Origin: Chlorobiaceae bacterium
GTDB lineage: Bacteria; Bacteroidota; Chlorobiia; Chlorobiales; Chlorobiaceae
DNA: 64,000 bases
Direction of reading: 5' to 3'
Assembly: GCA_013334865.1 (NCBI GenBank)
Contig: JAAXWS010000003.1
Coordinates: 62,001 to 126,000 of the forward strand
The notes under the pieces were generated by a model. It ran no database searches. It was not told the DNA's origin and was given only the letters and a program-made list of their open reading frames with translations. The position numbers were made by a program, and so were the translations under genes. Shown here piece by piece: positions 50,271-62,498 of this stretch. How positions within the stretch are numbered: position 1 is the stretch's first letter; every line of letters begins with the position of its first letter.

Positions 50271-50302
50271 GGTCCGTGCCGTCTCAGGCACGGACCTTTT
50301 CT
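50271..50302 (+). terminator. Rho-independent terminator after the OmpA-like gene
   Basis: GGTCCGTGCC-GTCTCA-GGCACGGACC followed by TTTTCTT. Confidence 0.85.
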
Positions 50303-50461
50303 TGCTTGCCAGAGACGCTGAAACCCTTGTTCCCGAGTGGGAAAAATTGTTTACCTTCAGACGCCGGGACCCCGGAGCCGCGGCTTCGCCCATCACAACG
50401 CAAACCGGCAGGGGTTCCATGTTCAGTATCAATGATCCTGAAACCATACATCAGTAACGCC

Positions 50462-50854
50462 ATGCACTACCAGAACCCGGAAGATGTCCTCTCGCGCTGG
50501 ATATCGGGAATCTGCAACGGAGCCATCGACGACGTCGAAAACCTCTATGATGAACACGCTGTCCTCGTCCCGACCTTCTCCCCACACACCGTCAACACCA
50601 CCCAGGGAATCCGCCAGTACTTCGAACAGCTTGCCACCAGGGACAACCTGCAGGTTCGCCTCTACGACAAGTCACTCAGGAAGCAGCCACTCGGCGGAAA
50701 CGCCTACGTCCTCAGCGGAATCTACGCCTTCGAATTCGAGGTCGACCAGCTCCTGCTGACATTCCCCTCGAGATTCACCTTCGCGGTCGACCTTTCGCTC
50801 GAAAAGCCGATCATCCACCACCACTCTTCACAGGTCCCGAGAAACCTCTCCTGA
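50462..50854 (+). CDS. SnoaL/NTF2-like (CaMKII-association-domain type) protein
   Basis: 130 aa from ATG 50462 (an upstream in-frame ATG lies at 50432). The pattern PEDVLSRWISGICNGAIDDVENLYDEHAVLVPTF, QYFEQLATRDNLQV and the C-terminal IIHHHSSQVP resembles the small NTF2-fold proteins grouped with SnoaL-like and calcium/calmodulin kinase II association domains. It should be soluble and oligomeric. The function is unknown. Confidence 0.75.
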   Translation: MHYQNPEDVLSRWISGICNGAIDDVENLYDEHAVLVPTFSPHTVNTTQGIRQYFEQLATRDNLQVRLYDKSLRKQPLGGNAYVLSGIYAFEFEVDQLLLTFPSRFTFAVDLSLEKPIIHHHSSQVPRNLS

Positions 50855-50926: not shown

Positions 50927-50952
50927 CCTTATATGATTAATTTTATATAAGG
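50927..50952. promoter_or_regulatory. AT-rich inverted repeat CCTTATAT-N10-ATATAAGG
   Basis: A perfect 8-bp repeat around a 10-bp centre, upstream of the methyltransferase-kinase operon. Either an operator or a weak hairpin. Confidence 0.4.
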
Positions 50953-51004
50953 AAAGGCACAATCTCCCACAAACAGCGAGTCAGCAGCATGATGCGTTGG
51001 TGAT

Positions 51005-51034
51005 ATCCTGCAAATGCGACTATATTTGCAGGAT
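51005..51034. promoter_or_regulatory. Perfect 11-bp inverted repeat upstream of the signalling operon
   Basis: ATCCTGCAAAT-N8-ATTTGCAGGAT lies 78 bp before the ATG at 51112, with a TATATT at 51021-51026 overlapping its right half. This fits an operator on the promoter of the methyltransferase-kinase operon, possibly for a response regulator. Confidence 0.5.
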
Positions 51035-51111
51035 AAAATGCCAACAGCAGGCATGAATTTCCGGAGCCCGGCTTCAAGTCAACTGTGCTTCCCCCACGAG
51101 CAAACAGTACA

Positions 51112-52152
51112 ATGCCAAACCCAACCCCACGCAAAATGCCGGCAACAGCTGCGCCAGCACATTGCCCGTGCCCTACGACAGGCGGCATCGCCCGGAAAAG
51201 AGATGAAGAGGGACCGTTTGGCCCGGACAAACAGAACACCCTCAAAACTCCCGGCACTGAAACGGCCTGGCTGGATTTCATAACAAGAATGATCACACAA
51301 TATGGCCCCGAGGCAGACGACCACCACAATCTTCGAATTGAAATCGAACGATTGGGGAAACTGCTGGGAGAACAACCGGGGCATACGCGCTATCAGGAAC
51401 TGATGGGCGTCATCGCACCAGCGTTGACACCTGAAACCATGCAGGGATTCGCTTACCACAAACCGCACGGGTATGCTGGCGATTACGAGATCATCGACAG
51501 AATCTATACCCTGCACACAACCGAAAATGAACGCCTGAAGAGATGGGACGAGTTCTTTCATGCCCAGGATGCCCCGCAGGCTGTCAGGAACAGAAAGTTT
51601 TTTTTCATCAACACCCTCAGCCAACTGTCCCGGGACAGAAAAAAACTTCGGGTACTTAACGTCGGAAGCGGCCCCGGAAGAGACATATTCGAATTTTTTG
51701 AAAACAACAGGGCGTCAGATATCCATTTCGACTGCATTGAATTTGACAGGAATGCGATCGCCTATGCCTCCGGACTGTGCGAAAGGCATCTTGACAAGAT
51801 CAGTTTCATCAATGCAAACGTTTTCAAGTTTTCGACAGCCGAGAAATACGACCTCGTCTGGTCCGCAGGACTCTTTGACTATCTGAACGACCGGCGATTC
51901 GTATTTCTGCTGAATAAACTCTATTCGTACCTCAAGCCTCGCGGGGTGCTTTATGTCGGCAACTTTTCCGATCTGAACCCGACAAGGAAGTACATGGAGT
52001 TATTCGGAAACTGGCACCTTTTACACAGGAACAAGCAGGATCTTATTGCGCTCGCCTTGCAGATCGGGATCGAGCATTCCAAAATCGACGTCTCAAGTGA
52101 ACCGCTTGGCATCAACCTGTTCCTCAAGCTTGTCAAATCCGATTTGCCTTAA
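51112..52152 (+). CDS. PhcB-like SAM-dependent methyltransferase
   Basis: 346 aa from ATG 51112; GTG 51085 and ATG 51136 are alternatives, and the conserved part starts near residue 50. KPHGYAGDYEIIDRIY (residues 117-132) followed by RNRKFFFINTL is the signature I associate with PhcB-like methyltransferases (3-hydroxy-fatty-acid methyl ester signal synthesis in Ralstonia). SAM motif I is VLNVGSGPGRD (181-191), with an acidic motif IEFD after it. It precedes a six-TM hybrid sensor kinase by 12 bp. Base composition is lower in GC than the flanks (29 of 60 in the line at 51661). The substrate is unknown. Confidence 0.75.
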   Translation: MPNPTPRKMPATAAPAHCPCPTTGGIARKRDEEGPFGPDKQNTLKTPGTETAWLDFITRMITQYGPEADDHHNLRIEIERLGKLLGEQPGHTRYQELMGVIAPALTPETMQGFAYHKPHGYAGDYEIIDRIYTLHTTENERLKRWDEFFHAQDAPQAVRNRKFFFINTLSQLSRDRKKLRVLNVGSGPGRDIFEFFENNRASDIHFDCIEFDRNAIAYASGLCERHLDKISFINANVFKFSTAEKYDLVWSAGLFDYLNDRRFVFLLNKLYSYLKPRGVLYVGNFSDLNPTRKYMELFGNWHLLHRNKQDLIALALQIGIEHSKIDVSSEPLGINLFLKLVKSDLP

Positions 52153-52164
52153 ACCAATTGAGAT

Positions 52165-54318
52165 ATGTACTTCGAGCAGAGATTCATGAATATCATCAAG
52201 CATATACAGTCATCTTTCGCCAAAGGCACGAAAACATCCCGGCTCAACATCATTTATGCATCCCTGATCGGTGCATCCGGGCATTTCACGCTCTATTTTG
52301 TCTACAGGTACGTTTTCAGCCTGCACTGGGAAAACCTACCGATCCGCCTGGTCGGCGTCTTTCTCTGTTGCGGATCGCTTTACCGTTTGATAAAACCCGA
52401 CTTTTTAGGCAGGCACTTCGGCGTCTACTGGCATCTGATGCTTATTTACGTCCTTCCTTTCATCATCACACTTTTCGCCCTGAAGAACAATTTCGACGAG
52501 CCATGGACTTACTGGGAAATCTTCATGGTGTTCGTTCTCATATCGTTCGTCCCGAACTGGTCGATGTTCCTGTTCGATCTTATCGCAGGAATCGTCGCCG
52601 CATTCGCGGCATACCTGCTTATAACGCCCATCACCGACCGATTTCAGACCGCGGCATTCGATCCGGGCCTGTACGGCATCGTCGTGGGCTTTTCCATTAT
52701 AGCCGGATACCTGTTCAATTACAGTAACCTGCAAGGGTTGCGGGCTGAGGAACAACGCAAAGCCGAGGAAAAATACTCCGCACTCGAAGCGCTGGCCGGA
52801 GGCATCGCCCACGAGATGCGCAATCCTCTCGGGCAGATAAGCCACAACCTCGACGAAATCACGCAGGAGATCCTGACTGAACGATACGATGACAAGAGAG
52901 GACCGCTGGCCACCAAGGACCTCCAGGCCATCCGGCAACGGCTGACCCAAGCCAAGACCGCCGTGAACCGAGGCCTGCATATCATCGACATGACCCTCGA
53001 GAACTTCAGGAGCGAAGAGCTCTTCAGGCATGACTTCGCATCGTTATCGATAGCCGCAGCCACAAGAAAGGCAATAGACGAATACGGCTATGCCTCCGAG
53101 GAAGAGCGGGGCAAGATCGATCTTCAGGAGGGCGAAGACTTTATCTTCAGGGGTGACGAAAGCAGCTATATGTTCGTCATCTACAACCTGTTCCTCAACG
53201 CGTTCCATGTCCTGAGGGACCGGACGGACGGACGGATCCGCCTGCACTTCGAACCTGGCAAGGAGATGAACACCGTGATCGTCAGGGACAATGGCCCCGG
53301 CATTCCGCCTGAGTTCCTGAACAGGATTTTCGACCCGTTTTTTACATCTGGCAAGACGGGCGGGACCGGACTCGGCCTGGCCTTTTGCATTCGGGTGATG
53401 CGTTCATTCGGCGGGGATATCACGTGCAATTCAGAGCCCGGCAGGTTCACTGAATTCGTCCTGAGCTTCCCGGCGCTCGGCAAGGAGCTTATCGATGAGT
53501 TCGAAAAACACCTCTATGGCGCAAACAGGACACTCCTTGAAGGCAAAAAACTGCTGCTGGCCGGCAATGACAAAAGCCATCTTTCGCTCATCCGGCAGCA
53601 GCTCGCCCCCCTCGGCATGATAATCGACGAAGCCACGGACGGGGCTTCGGCCATGAACATCATCGCGACCGGGATGTACGACCTCATACTGGCTGACATC
53701 GAACTACCGATCCTCAACGCGGCAGAGCTCGCCTCAAGGATAACAGCCCGGGGCAAAGAGATTCCGGTCATCGCCTTTGCCGTGGGCAAAGATCCATCCG
53801 TGGGCAGAAAGATAGAGGAAAACCGGGGCATAGAAGCCCACATCTCCATGCCTCCGGTACTGTCGGAACTTCTCCATGTACTCAAGTGCACCCTGGAAAC
53901 CTCGAGGGGAGTCCTCAAGGGTTCGCTTGCGGGCAAAACCGTTCTGGTCGTGGATGACCTCGACTTCAACCGGAAGGTGATCACGTCGATGCTGGGCAGG
54001 CTCGACGTGACGATCCTGGAGGCTTCGAACGGCCAGGAGGCGCTCGAGCTCCTTGAAACCAACAAATGCGACCTGCTGGTCATGGACCTGAAAATGCCCG
54101 TGCTCGACGGGTTCGAGGCCACCAGGCGAGTTCGACGAGGCGACACGCCCTATCGCGACATCCCGATTCTTGGCCTGAGCGGCAACCTCGACAACAACTC
54201 GATGCAGATGGCCCGACTCTGCGGCATCAACGACTGCCTCATCAAGCCGGTAAAGTTGAAACTGTTCCTGCAGAAGGTCGGGTCAATGCTGAAGAGTGAA
54301 AAGCAGCAAGCGGCTTAA
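52165..54318 (+). CDS. Six-TM hybrid sensor histidine kinase (PhcS/CqsS/LqsS-like)
   Basis: 717 aa. Six TM helices without a large periplasmic domain lie at about 28-48, 61-76, 90-106, 115-131, 135-153 and 167-184. HisKA has His216 in GGIAHEMRNPLGQ. The ATPase domain has an N-box (YNLFLNAFHVL), DNGPGIP (375-381) and GTGLGLAF (400-407). A first receiver (about 461-575) keeps D511 but lacks the usual Lys (SMPP at 561-564). A second, canonical receiver (about 592-710) has D641 and K694. This is the layout of CqsS and relatives, which sense membrane-permeable quorum signals. It is coupled to the methyltransferase upstream. No downstream response regulator was seen. Confidence 0.9.
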   Translation: MYFEQRFMNIIKHIQSSFAKGTKTSRLNIIYASLIGASGHFTLYFVYRYVFSLHWENLPIRLVGVFLCCGSLYRLIKPDFLGRHFGVYWHLMLIYVLPFIITLFALKNNFDEPWTYWEIFMVFVLISFVPNWSMFLFDLIAGIVAAFAAYLLITPITDRFQTAAFDPGLYGIVVGFSIIAGYLFNYSNLQGLRAEEQRKAEEKYSALEALAGGIAHEMRNPLGQISHNLDEITQEILTERYDDKRGPLATKDLQAIRQRLTQAKTAVNRGLHIIDMTLENFRSEELFRHDFASLSIAAATRKAIDEYGYASEEERGKIDLQEGEDFIFRGDESSYMFVIYNLFLNAFHVLRDRTDGRIRLHFEPGKEMNTVIVRDNGPGIPPEFLNRIFDPFFTSGKTGGTGLGLAFCIRVMRSFGGDITCNSEPGRFTEFVLSFPALGKELIDEFEKHLYGANRTLLEGKKLLLAGNDKSHLSLIRQQLAPLGMIIDEATDGASAMNIIATGMYDLILADIELPILNAAELASRITARGKEIPVIAFAVGKDPSVGRKIEENRGIEAHISMPPVLSELLHVLKCTLETSRGVLKGSLAGKTVLVVDDLDFNRKVITSMLGRLDVTILEASNGQEALELLETNKCDLLVMDLKMPVLDGFEATRRVRRGDTPYRDIPILGLSGNLDNNSMQMARLCGINDCLIKPVKLKLFLQKVGSMLKSEKQQAA

Positions 54319-61625: not shown

Positions 61626-62498
61626 ATGCTGGTCAAAGAGATTCTCGAATCGAGCAATGAACCGATCTTCAGCTTTGAGTTCTTCCCGCCGAAAAAGCAG
61701 GAGGAGTGGGACAATCTCTTTGCAACCATCACCAACCTCTCCCCCCTCAAGCCATCCTACGTCAGCGTCACCTATGGCGCTGGCGGGTCGACGAGGGAGC
61801 GCACGCACAACCTGGTCACCAGGATCCAGAAGGAGACGGGGCTGACGGTCGTCTCGCACCTGACCTGCATCTGCTCGGGCCAGGAGGAGATCGGCCCGAT
61901 CCTCGAGCTCTATCGCGAACACGGCATCGTCAACGTCCTGGCGCTTCGTGGCGACAAGCCGGCGGATGTCGCCACGATCGAAGAGGCCATCAGGGACTTC
62001 CCGCATGCCATCGACCTGGTCAGGTTCATCAAGGCGAACTTCCCCGAGATGGGCGTCGGCGTGGCCGGCTTCCCCGAAGGCCACCCGGAGACCCCGAACC
62101 GCATGAAGGAGCTCGAGTACCTGAAGGAGAAGGTGGATGCCGGCGCCGACTACATCGTGACCCAGCTCTTCTTCGACAACCGCGACTATTTCGATTACGT
62201 GGAGCGCTGCAGGATCGCGGGCATCAACGTCCCGATCATCCCGGGCATCATGCCGATCACGACCAGGAAAGGGATGATCCGCATGTCCGAGCTGGCGCTC
62301 GGTTCACGCATCCCCGCAAGGCTCCTCAAAAGGGTGCTCGAGGCGAAGGACGACCGTGAGGTCGCGGAGATCGGCATCGAGTGGGCCACCCGGCAGGTCC
62401 AGGAGCTCATCGACAACCACGTCAGGGGCATCCACTTCTACACCCTCAACCTCGCCGAAGCCACCCTGAGGATCTTCAGGAACATCAGGAAGGGTTAA
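61626..62498 (+). CDS. metF: Methylenetetrahydrofolate reductase
   Basis: 290 aa TIM barrel. FSFEFFPPKKQEEWDNLF, SVTYGAGGSTRERT, HLTCICSGQEEI, ALRGDKP and YIVTQLFFDN are hallmark MetF segments. It supplies methyl-THF for methionine. It is divergent from comEC, and a TATATT element lies at 61584-61589. Confidence 0.97.
   Translation: MLVKEILESSNEPIFSFEFFPPKKQEEWDNLFATITNLSPLKPSYVSVTYGAGGSTRERTHNLVTRIQKETGLTVVSHLTCICSGQEEIGPILELYREHGIVNVLALRGDKPADVATIEEAIRDFPHAIDLVRFIKANFPEMGVGVAGFPEGHPETPNRMKELEYLKEKVDAGADYIVTQLFFDNRDYFDYVERCRIAGINVPIIPGIMPITTRKGMIRMSELALGSRIPARLLKRVLEAKDDREVAEIGIEWATRQVQELIDNHVRGIHFYTLNLAEATLRIFRNIRKG

Follow-up and report, generated by a model that had tools for sequence, protein, structure and literature searches.

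A methyltransferase and six-helix sensor kinase pair of a green sulfur bacterium as a probable quorum-sensing module at an exchangeable locus

We have found that two adjacent genes of a Chlorobiaceae bacterium, encoding a PhcB-like methyltransferase (MT) and a hybrid histidine kinase with six transmembrane (TM) helices, probably form a quorum-sensing module at an exchangeable locus, with the synthase and the sensor part of the kinase having come together as a cassette that switched the chemistry of the signal. The genes lie in a stretch of 64,000 nucleotides (positions 62,001 to 126,000 of contig JAAXWS010000003.1, assembly GCA_013334865.1) that we refer to as the window and whose features are listed in Table 1. 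The evidence that carries this reading comprises the linkage of synthase and kinase genes, the exchange of synthases at one locus, the mosaic make-up of the kinase, and a sensor residue that tracks the type of synthase. The two open reading frames (346 and 717 amino acids, 12 bp apart and both on the plus strand) are present as a preliminary description of the window had given them, and that description had also proposed that the pair makes and senses a signal.

Orthologues of the kinase are found in most genomes of the genus and occupy one locus, flanked on one side by a CaMKII_AD-like gene and on the other by a block of genes, lpxD, prs and L25, whose names were assigned by reading translations. 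The gene or genes upstream of the kinase vary between species of the genus. This slot holds the MT in the window and in genomes G010 and G018; a hotdog protein of the AfsA type together with a protein resembling flavin adenine dinucleotide (FAD)-dependent oxidases in G002, G003, G006, G007, G008, G012-G015, G017 and G019; and a divergent gene in G001, G011, G016 and G020. The copy in G001 is CqsA, matching the NCBIfam model NF005526 (alpha-hydroxyketone-type quorum-sensing autoinducer synthase) with 576 bits against a cutoff of 428; the AfsA protein scores 128 bits, its FAD partner is of the amine-oxidase type, and the start and stop codons of the AfsA and FAD genes often overlap. The family's second genus has a longer, paralogous kinase, whose partner is a fusion of thioesterase-like and leucine-carboxyl-methyltransferase-like (LCM) parts. 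A survey of 86 Chlorobiaceae genomes returned 84 synthase genes (8 MT, 28 AfsA, 34 CqsA and 14 fusion), of which 76 adjoin a six-TM kinase and the remaining 8 lie at contig ends, the AfsA gene of G087 having been checked individually; the linkage of synthase and kinase is nearly absolute. Because seven of the eight MT genes stand beside a kinase of the window's family, and the eighth is truncated by a contig end, the pairing of MT and kinase is not a matter of chance, and the adjacency that the preliminary description had proposed to look for across the Chlorobiaceae is found wherever it is visible. All four kinds of synthase are present in three genomes (G022, G046 and G057, the MT of G046 being frame-broken). 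Judged from these comparisons, the kinase appears to be old in the genus and the neighbouring enzyme does not.

CqsA homologues are known autoinducer synthases and AfsA represents a family of gamma-butyrolactone synthases, and the fact that curated CqsA and AfsA-type proteins occupy the same slot argues against the idea that the MT modifies a target that does not diffuse, such as a membrane lipid, a pigment or the kinase itself, with the kinase sensing the product or the state of the membrane in its own cell. We consider this arrangement unlikely, and note in its favour that six-TM anchors answering lipophilic ligands are known on cyclases too, in chimeras (PMC4821796).

The identity of the two proteins bears on a second alternative. 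Pfam assigns the MT to the fold of class I S-adenosylmethionine (SAM) methyltransferases (Methyltransf_31, 46 bits), and the core of its KPHGYAGDYEIID signature is invariant in the aligned members of the MT family. In the kinase Pfam detects HATPase_c, a weak match to HisKA and two Response_reg domains, and an AlphaFold model of residues 1-230 (positions 52165-52854; 44 homologues; pLDDT 91.7) has an N-terminal helix followed by six long helices (residues 26-50, 58-76, 82-107, 112-128, 132-153 and 167-219), such that the six-TM input bundle runs straight into HisKA with no other large sensor domain. Pfam and the model agree with the kinase layout first described, which included His216, the ATPase and two receivers. 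As a point of comparison we used L182 6452-10484 (G210), a gammaproteobacterial operon encoding an MT, a six-TM kinase with His230 and a receiver-kinase, which we call phcBSR-like by its layout and His230 and not by name; the phospho-acceptor of PhcS is His230 (PMC11960443). The window MT is 30% identical to the MT of this operon over 245 amino acids and has the KPxGYAGDYE signature in common with it, which bears out the label PhcB-like and also speaks for a true Phc-type system, in which the MT and kinase would be orthologues of PhcB and PhcS and the kinase would sense a 3-hydroxy fatty acid methyl ester. As in PhcB/PhcS of Ralstonia, a methyltransferase of the PhcB-like group lies beside a gene for a six-TM kinase. 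However, comparison of the window sensor with the PhcS-like sensor of L182 by hhalign gave a probability of 0.1%, equal to that of shuffled sequences, and hence no homology, whereas the window sensor aligns at E 1.9e-36 with a sensor of a gammaproteobacterium whose genome encodes an LqsR-like regulator. In addition, the kinase is a hybrid with two receivers, phcR and phcQ are not found downstream of it, and the next downstream gene is on the opposite strand. We consider a true Phc-type system quite improbable. The kinase was first described as having the layout of PhcS, CqsS and LqsS; PhcS was rejected as its family, given the lack of sensor homology to the L182 kinase, and by sequence the kinase appears to belong with CqsS/LqsS-like sensors, in that it aligns with signal receptors and its orthologues are paired with curated CqsA.

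We present evidence that the window kinase has two histories. In a tree of the cytoplasmic half it falls with the AfsA/FAD-paired kinases of sister species (L029 and L030; 65-69% identity), a placement consistent with a tree of the concatenated flanking marker genes, whereas in a tree of the sensor half it groups with the MT-paired sensors of another genus with support of 100/100. The sensor is 60-62% identical to three of these MT-paired sensors, whose cytoplasmic halves are only 38-40% identical to that of the window, and 38-42% identical to CqsA-paired orthologues of its own genus. At informative sites, those at which the window matches just one of the two sides, the ratio of MT-like to sister-like residues is 24:2 in residues 1-113 and 9:126 in the remainder (Fisher p 4.5e-19; none of 5000 permutations reached the statistic). 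In approximately unbiased (AU) tests a single clade of MT-type kinases was rejected for the cytoplasmic half (difference in log-likelihood 508, p 1.8e-5) and the species clade for the sensor half (difference 120). These comparisons indicate a mosaic of an MT-type sensor half and a resident cytoplasmic half. The kinase of G010 appears to be an independent case of this graft, built on another chassis. Its sensor is 68% and its cytoplasmic half 54% identical to those of the window, while against CqsA-paired kinases its cytoplasmic half reaches up to 74% and its sensor 35%. Furthermore, among all pairs of short-type kinases the sensors are more alike, at a given kinase identity, when the synthase is of the same type (0 of 2000 label permutations), and in a tree of the MTs the three Chlorobaculum copies fall together, matching the sensor tree, with modest support.

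A single position in TM4 follows the synthase. In CqsS of Vibrio, W104 and S107 of TM4 are reported in a review to discriminate between the hydroxyl and amino forms at C3 of CAI-1 (PMC5007282); we matched these residues to positions 114 and 117 of the window kinase on the basis of spacing and location in TM4. The tryptophan is invariant across the Chlorobiaceae sensors. Three residues further on, CqsA-paired sensors have serine (6 of 6 in the alignment, plus five read by eye, for a total of 11), AfsA-paired sensors tryptophan (25 of 25), MT-paired sensors tryptophan (7 of 7) and fusion-paired sensors alanine or cysteine (11 of 11), so that the W-x-x-S / W / A-C pattern follows the type of synthase with zero exceptions among paired sensors, in counts that include related kinases and hence are not independent. 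This position reads like a code for the class of ligand. The window keeps Trp114 and has Trp117 in place of the serine, and we therefore propose that its sensor works in the manner of CqsS but make no claim that it is a CAI-1 receptor. Convergent adaptation of the sensor half to the same ligand, in place of recombination, would be in line with the shift at position 117, as ligand-binding residues are expected to shift with the ligand, but is very doubtful given that the likeness is block-like, extending over residues 1-113 (24 of the 26 informative sites there) before it stops in the junction zone, that the tree grouping is fully supported, and that the linked MT copies group compatibly.

Some sensors of this kind have no synthase beside them. 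Second six-TM kinases with W-x-x-S lacking an adjacent synthase are encoded in G010 (L033 1590-3752), G014 (L031 8876-11092) and G019 (L032 10496-12652), genomes in which no CqsA was found, and it is possible that they are receptors that eavesdrop on the signals of others. We also note that longer kinases carrying W-[VTA]-M-S form a clade (L052, L104, L105, L107 and L109), again with no synthase alongside; an O6-methylguanine-DNA-methyltransferase-like gene adjoins these kinases in the three that were checked. Lastly, G007 (L053 5592-13662) and G008 (L056 3-7413) each have three tandem kinases of the family near a response-regulator gene; their TM4 motifs diverge, and no synthase was recognised with them.

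The module that we favour would function as follows. The MT would turn a fatty-acyl precursor into a small lipophilic signal, possibly a fatty-acid methyl ester, which would partition into membranes and bind inside the six-TM bundle of the adjacent kinase; binding would alter kinase or phosphatase activity and the flow of phosphate through His216 and the receivers to some output. The synthase and at least TM1-3 of the sensor would have arrived as one cassette, recombined into the resident kinase near TM4-TM6, and displaced an AfsA-type or other synthase/sensor pair. If the cassette replaced an earlier pair, then the lineage would have switched its signal chemistry and kept its output machinery. 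The initial interpretation thus stands in part, with the gene identities, the adjacency and the logic of quorum sensing (in which production and sensing of the signal are inferred) supported and the analogy with PhcS set aside.

Several points weigh against this proposal. Some of the groups in the AU tests were defined after inspection of the trees, and strong selection on the sensor could have mimicked part of the mosaic signal. There is no output regulator near the MT/kinase pair. The closest full-length solved match of the MT, 3ocj, is itself uncharacterised. Moreover, frame shifts disrupt the MT in two of the eight genomes that have it (L028 5363-6308 in G018 and L171 101-941 in G046), indicating either that it is dispensable in some genomes or that these assemblies contain errors.

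The window pair resembles CqsA/CqsS of Vibrio and LqsA/LqsS of Legionella in that the sensor kinase has six TM helices and lacks a large sensor domain, and the likeness to CqsA/CqsS extends to the sister-species orthologues that pair with curated CqsA at this locus and to the TM4 tryptophan that matches W104. Unlike in CqsA/CqsS, the enzyme is a methyltransferase, the S107 position is tryptophan, and cqsA found no match in the window genome (G000). That green sulfur bacteria encode cqsA/cqsS has been published (PMC5289986; PMC10158934), and the cqsAS genes described for Prosthecochloris and other members of the group represent the same kind of locus, with adjacent genes at a conserved position; these studies report the CAI-1 type only, in one case as the only system found (PMC10158934), and contain no MT, AfsA/FAD or thioesterase-methyltransferase types and no grafting of sensors. 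In an eLife study Chlorobia are named among the organisms that have six-TM sensors like CqsS, and the CqsS bundle still answers CAI-1 when transplanted onto a cyclase (PMC4821796); the sensor family was therefore already known, and known to be modular in the laboratory. Our literature search, which covered few subscription papers, found no earlier report of other synthase types at the locus or of grafting of the sensor half.

Table 1. Features of the synthase/kinase locus, in window coordinates
Feature	Position	Strand	Basis
CaMKII_AD/SnoaL-like gene that bounds the exchange slot on the left; conserved across the genus	50276..50854	+	Locus comparison
Possible operator ahead of the MT: perfect 12-bp inverted repeat TATCCTGCAAAT/ATTTGCAGGATA	51004..51035	.	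Sequence scan
Proposed signal synthase, a class I SAM methyltransferase of PhcB-like type; uncertain start codon	51112..52152	+	Pfam, alignment, models
KPHGYAGDYEIID signature, MT residues 117-129	51460..51498	+	Also in the MT of the phcBSR-like operon
SAM-binding motif I NVGSGPGRD, MT residues 183-191	51658..51684	+	Sequence, alignment
Six-TM hybrid histidine kinase, CqsS/LqsS type, proposed receptor	52165..54318	+	Pfam, trees, AlphaFold model
Sensor residues 1-113 (putative transferred segment), akin to the MT-paired sensors of another genus	52165..52503	+	Trees, informative sites
Junction zone from TM4 to TM6 (residues 114-190); similarity changes here to the resident kinase	52504..52734	+	Informative sites, model
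W114-x-x-W117, matching CqsS W104/S107	52504..52515	+	Alignment of Chlorobiaceae sensors; spacing and TM4 location; PMC5007282
Cytoplasmic half of the resident kinase (HisKA, HATPase and both receivers; residues 191-717), passed down with the species	52735..54318	+	Trees, AU tests
Phospho-acceptor His216, within AHEMRNP	52810..52812	+	Sequence reading
HATPase_c, residues 330-437	53152..53475	+	Pfam
First receiver domain (AGND), its acidic pair seemingly incomplete	53545..53895	+	Pfam; acidic pair judged by eye
Second receiver domain (VDD...D), residues 593-704	53941..54276	+	Pfam

The start of the MT is uncertain because its residues 1-52 are not conserved; their pLDDT is mostly below 50, and the conserved part begins near position 51268. 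The inverted repeat ahead of the MT was not found upstream of the relatives' genes, and promoter and terminator scans gave results at chance level. Relatives of the MT on plasmids (of Rhizobium and others; 25-33% identity) had no sensor kinase adjoining in the two loci inspected, and none was seen next to the close gammaproteobacterial MTs of G113 and G241, the G241 copy lying near a contig end. In L182 the MT carries an N-terminal extension, and an HSP90-like gene lies just upstream of the operon. A metagenome-assembled gammaproteobacterial genome, G102, encodes both a close relative of the MT and sensors of the window's kind. In this genome a ketoacyl-ACP-synthase-III-like gene lies 27 bp ahead of a six-TM kinase whose sensor belongs to this family (L167 5002-7392), and thus a further, fifth class of synthase may exist. 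At L170 2-1895 of the same genome the contig end truncates a kinase gene of the family, and the gene after it encodes a 345-amino-acid protein with a weak receiver-domain match, which from its length we take to resemble LqsR.

LuxN was the top NCBIfam model for the kinase, and was rejected as its family, as the match covers the kinase part only and falls far below the cutoff; the TM part alone had no meaningful match. A Foldseek search against the PDB found no significant fold for the sensor. In a second structural alignment the six-TM model matched membrane anchors (AC9, Z 10.7; ImcA, 10.2; AC8, 8.2) more closely than it did unrelated folds, and this resemblance of the modelled bundle to adenylyl cyclase membrane anchors is, for a helical bundle, suggestive only.

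On balance, we favour the view that recombination allows green sulfur bacteria to change the chemical class of their quorum signals, by fitting a cassette of synthase and membrane sensor to a kinase already in place. In this view four or more enzyme families supply a single type of six-TM receptor, some species operate as many as four pairs side by side, and others retain orphan receptors with which they listen in on their neighbours. Among Gram-positive bacteria pherotype switching has been described for peptide signals, with variation in a single peptide. The agr system of staphylococci and the comQXP/comC pherotypes likewise combine a variable signal-plus-sensor part with a constant kinase output, but whereas they vary a single peptide signal, in the Chlorobiaceae the enzyme family itself, and so probably the chemical class, appears to be exchanged, with the front end of the receptor following. 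The evolution of specificity between signal and receptor would thereby become testable, with dozens of natural sensor variants, one code-like position in TM4, and an AfsA-type version of the locus available in G003. Our findings also predict that bacteria forming dense, stratified layers use several further lipophilic signals, and may provide natural ligands for a six-TM bundle whose modelled fold resembles the membrane anchors of adenylyl cyclases, the ligands of which are a long-standing question.

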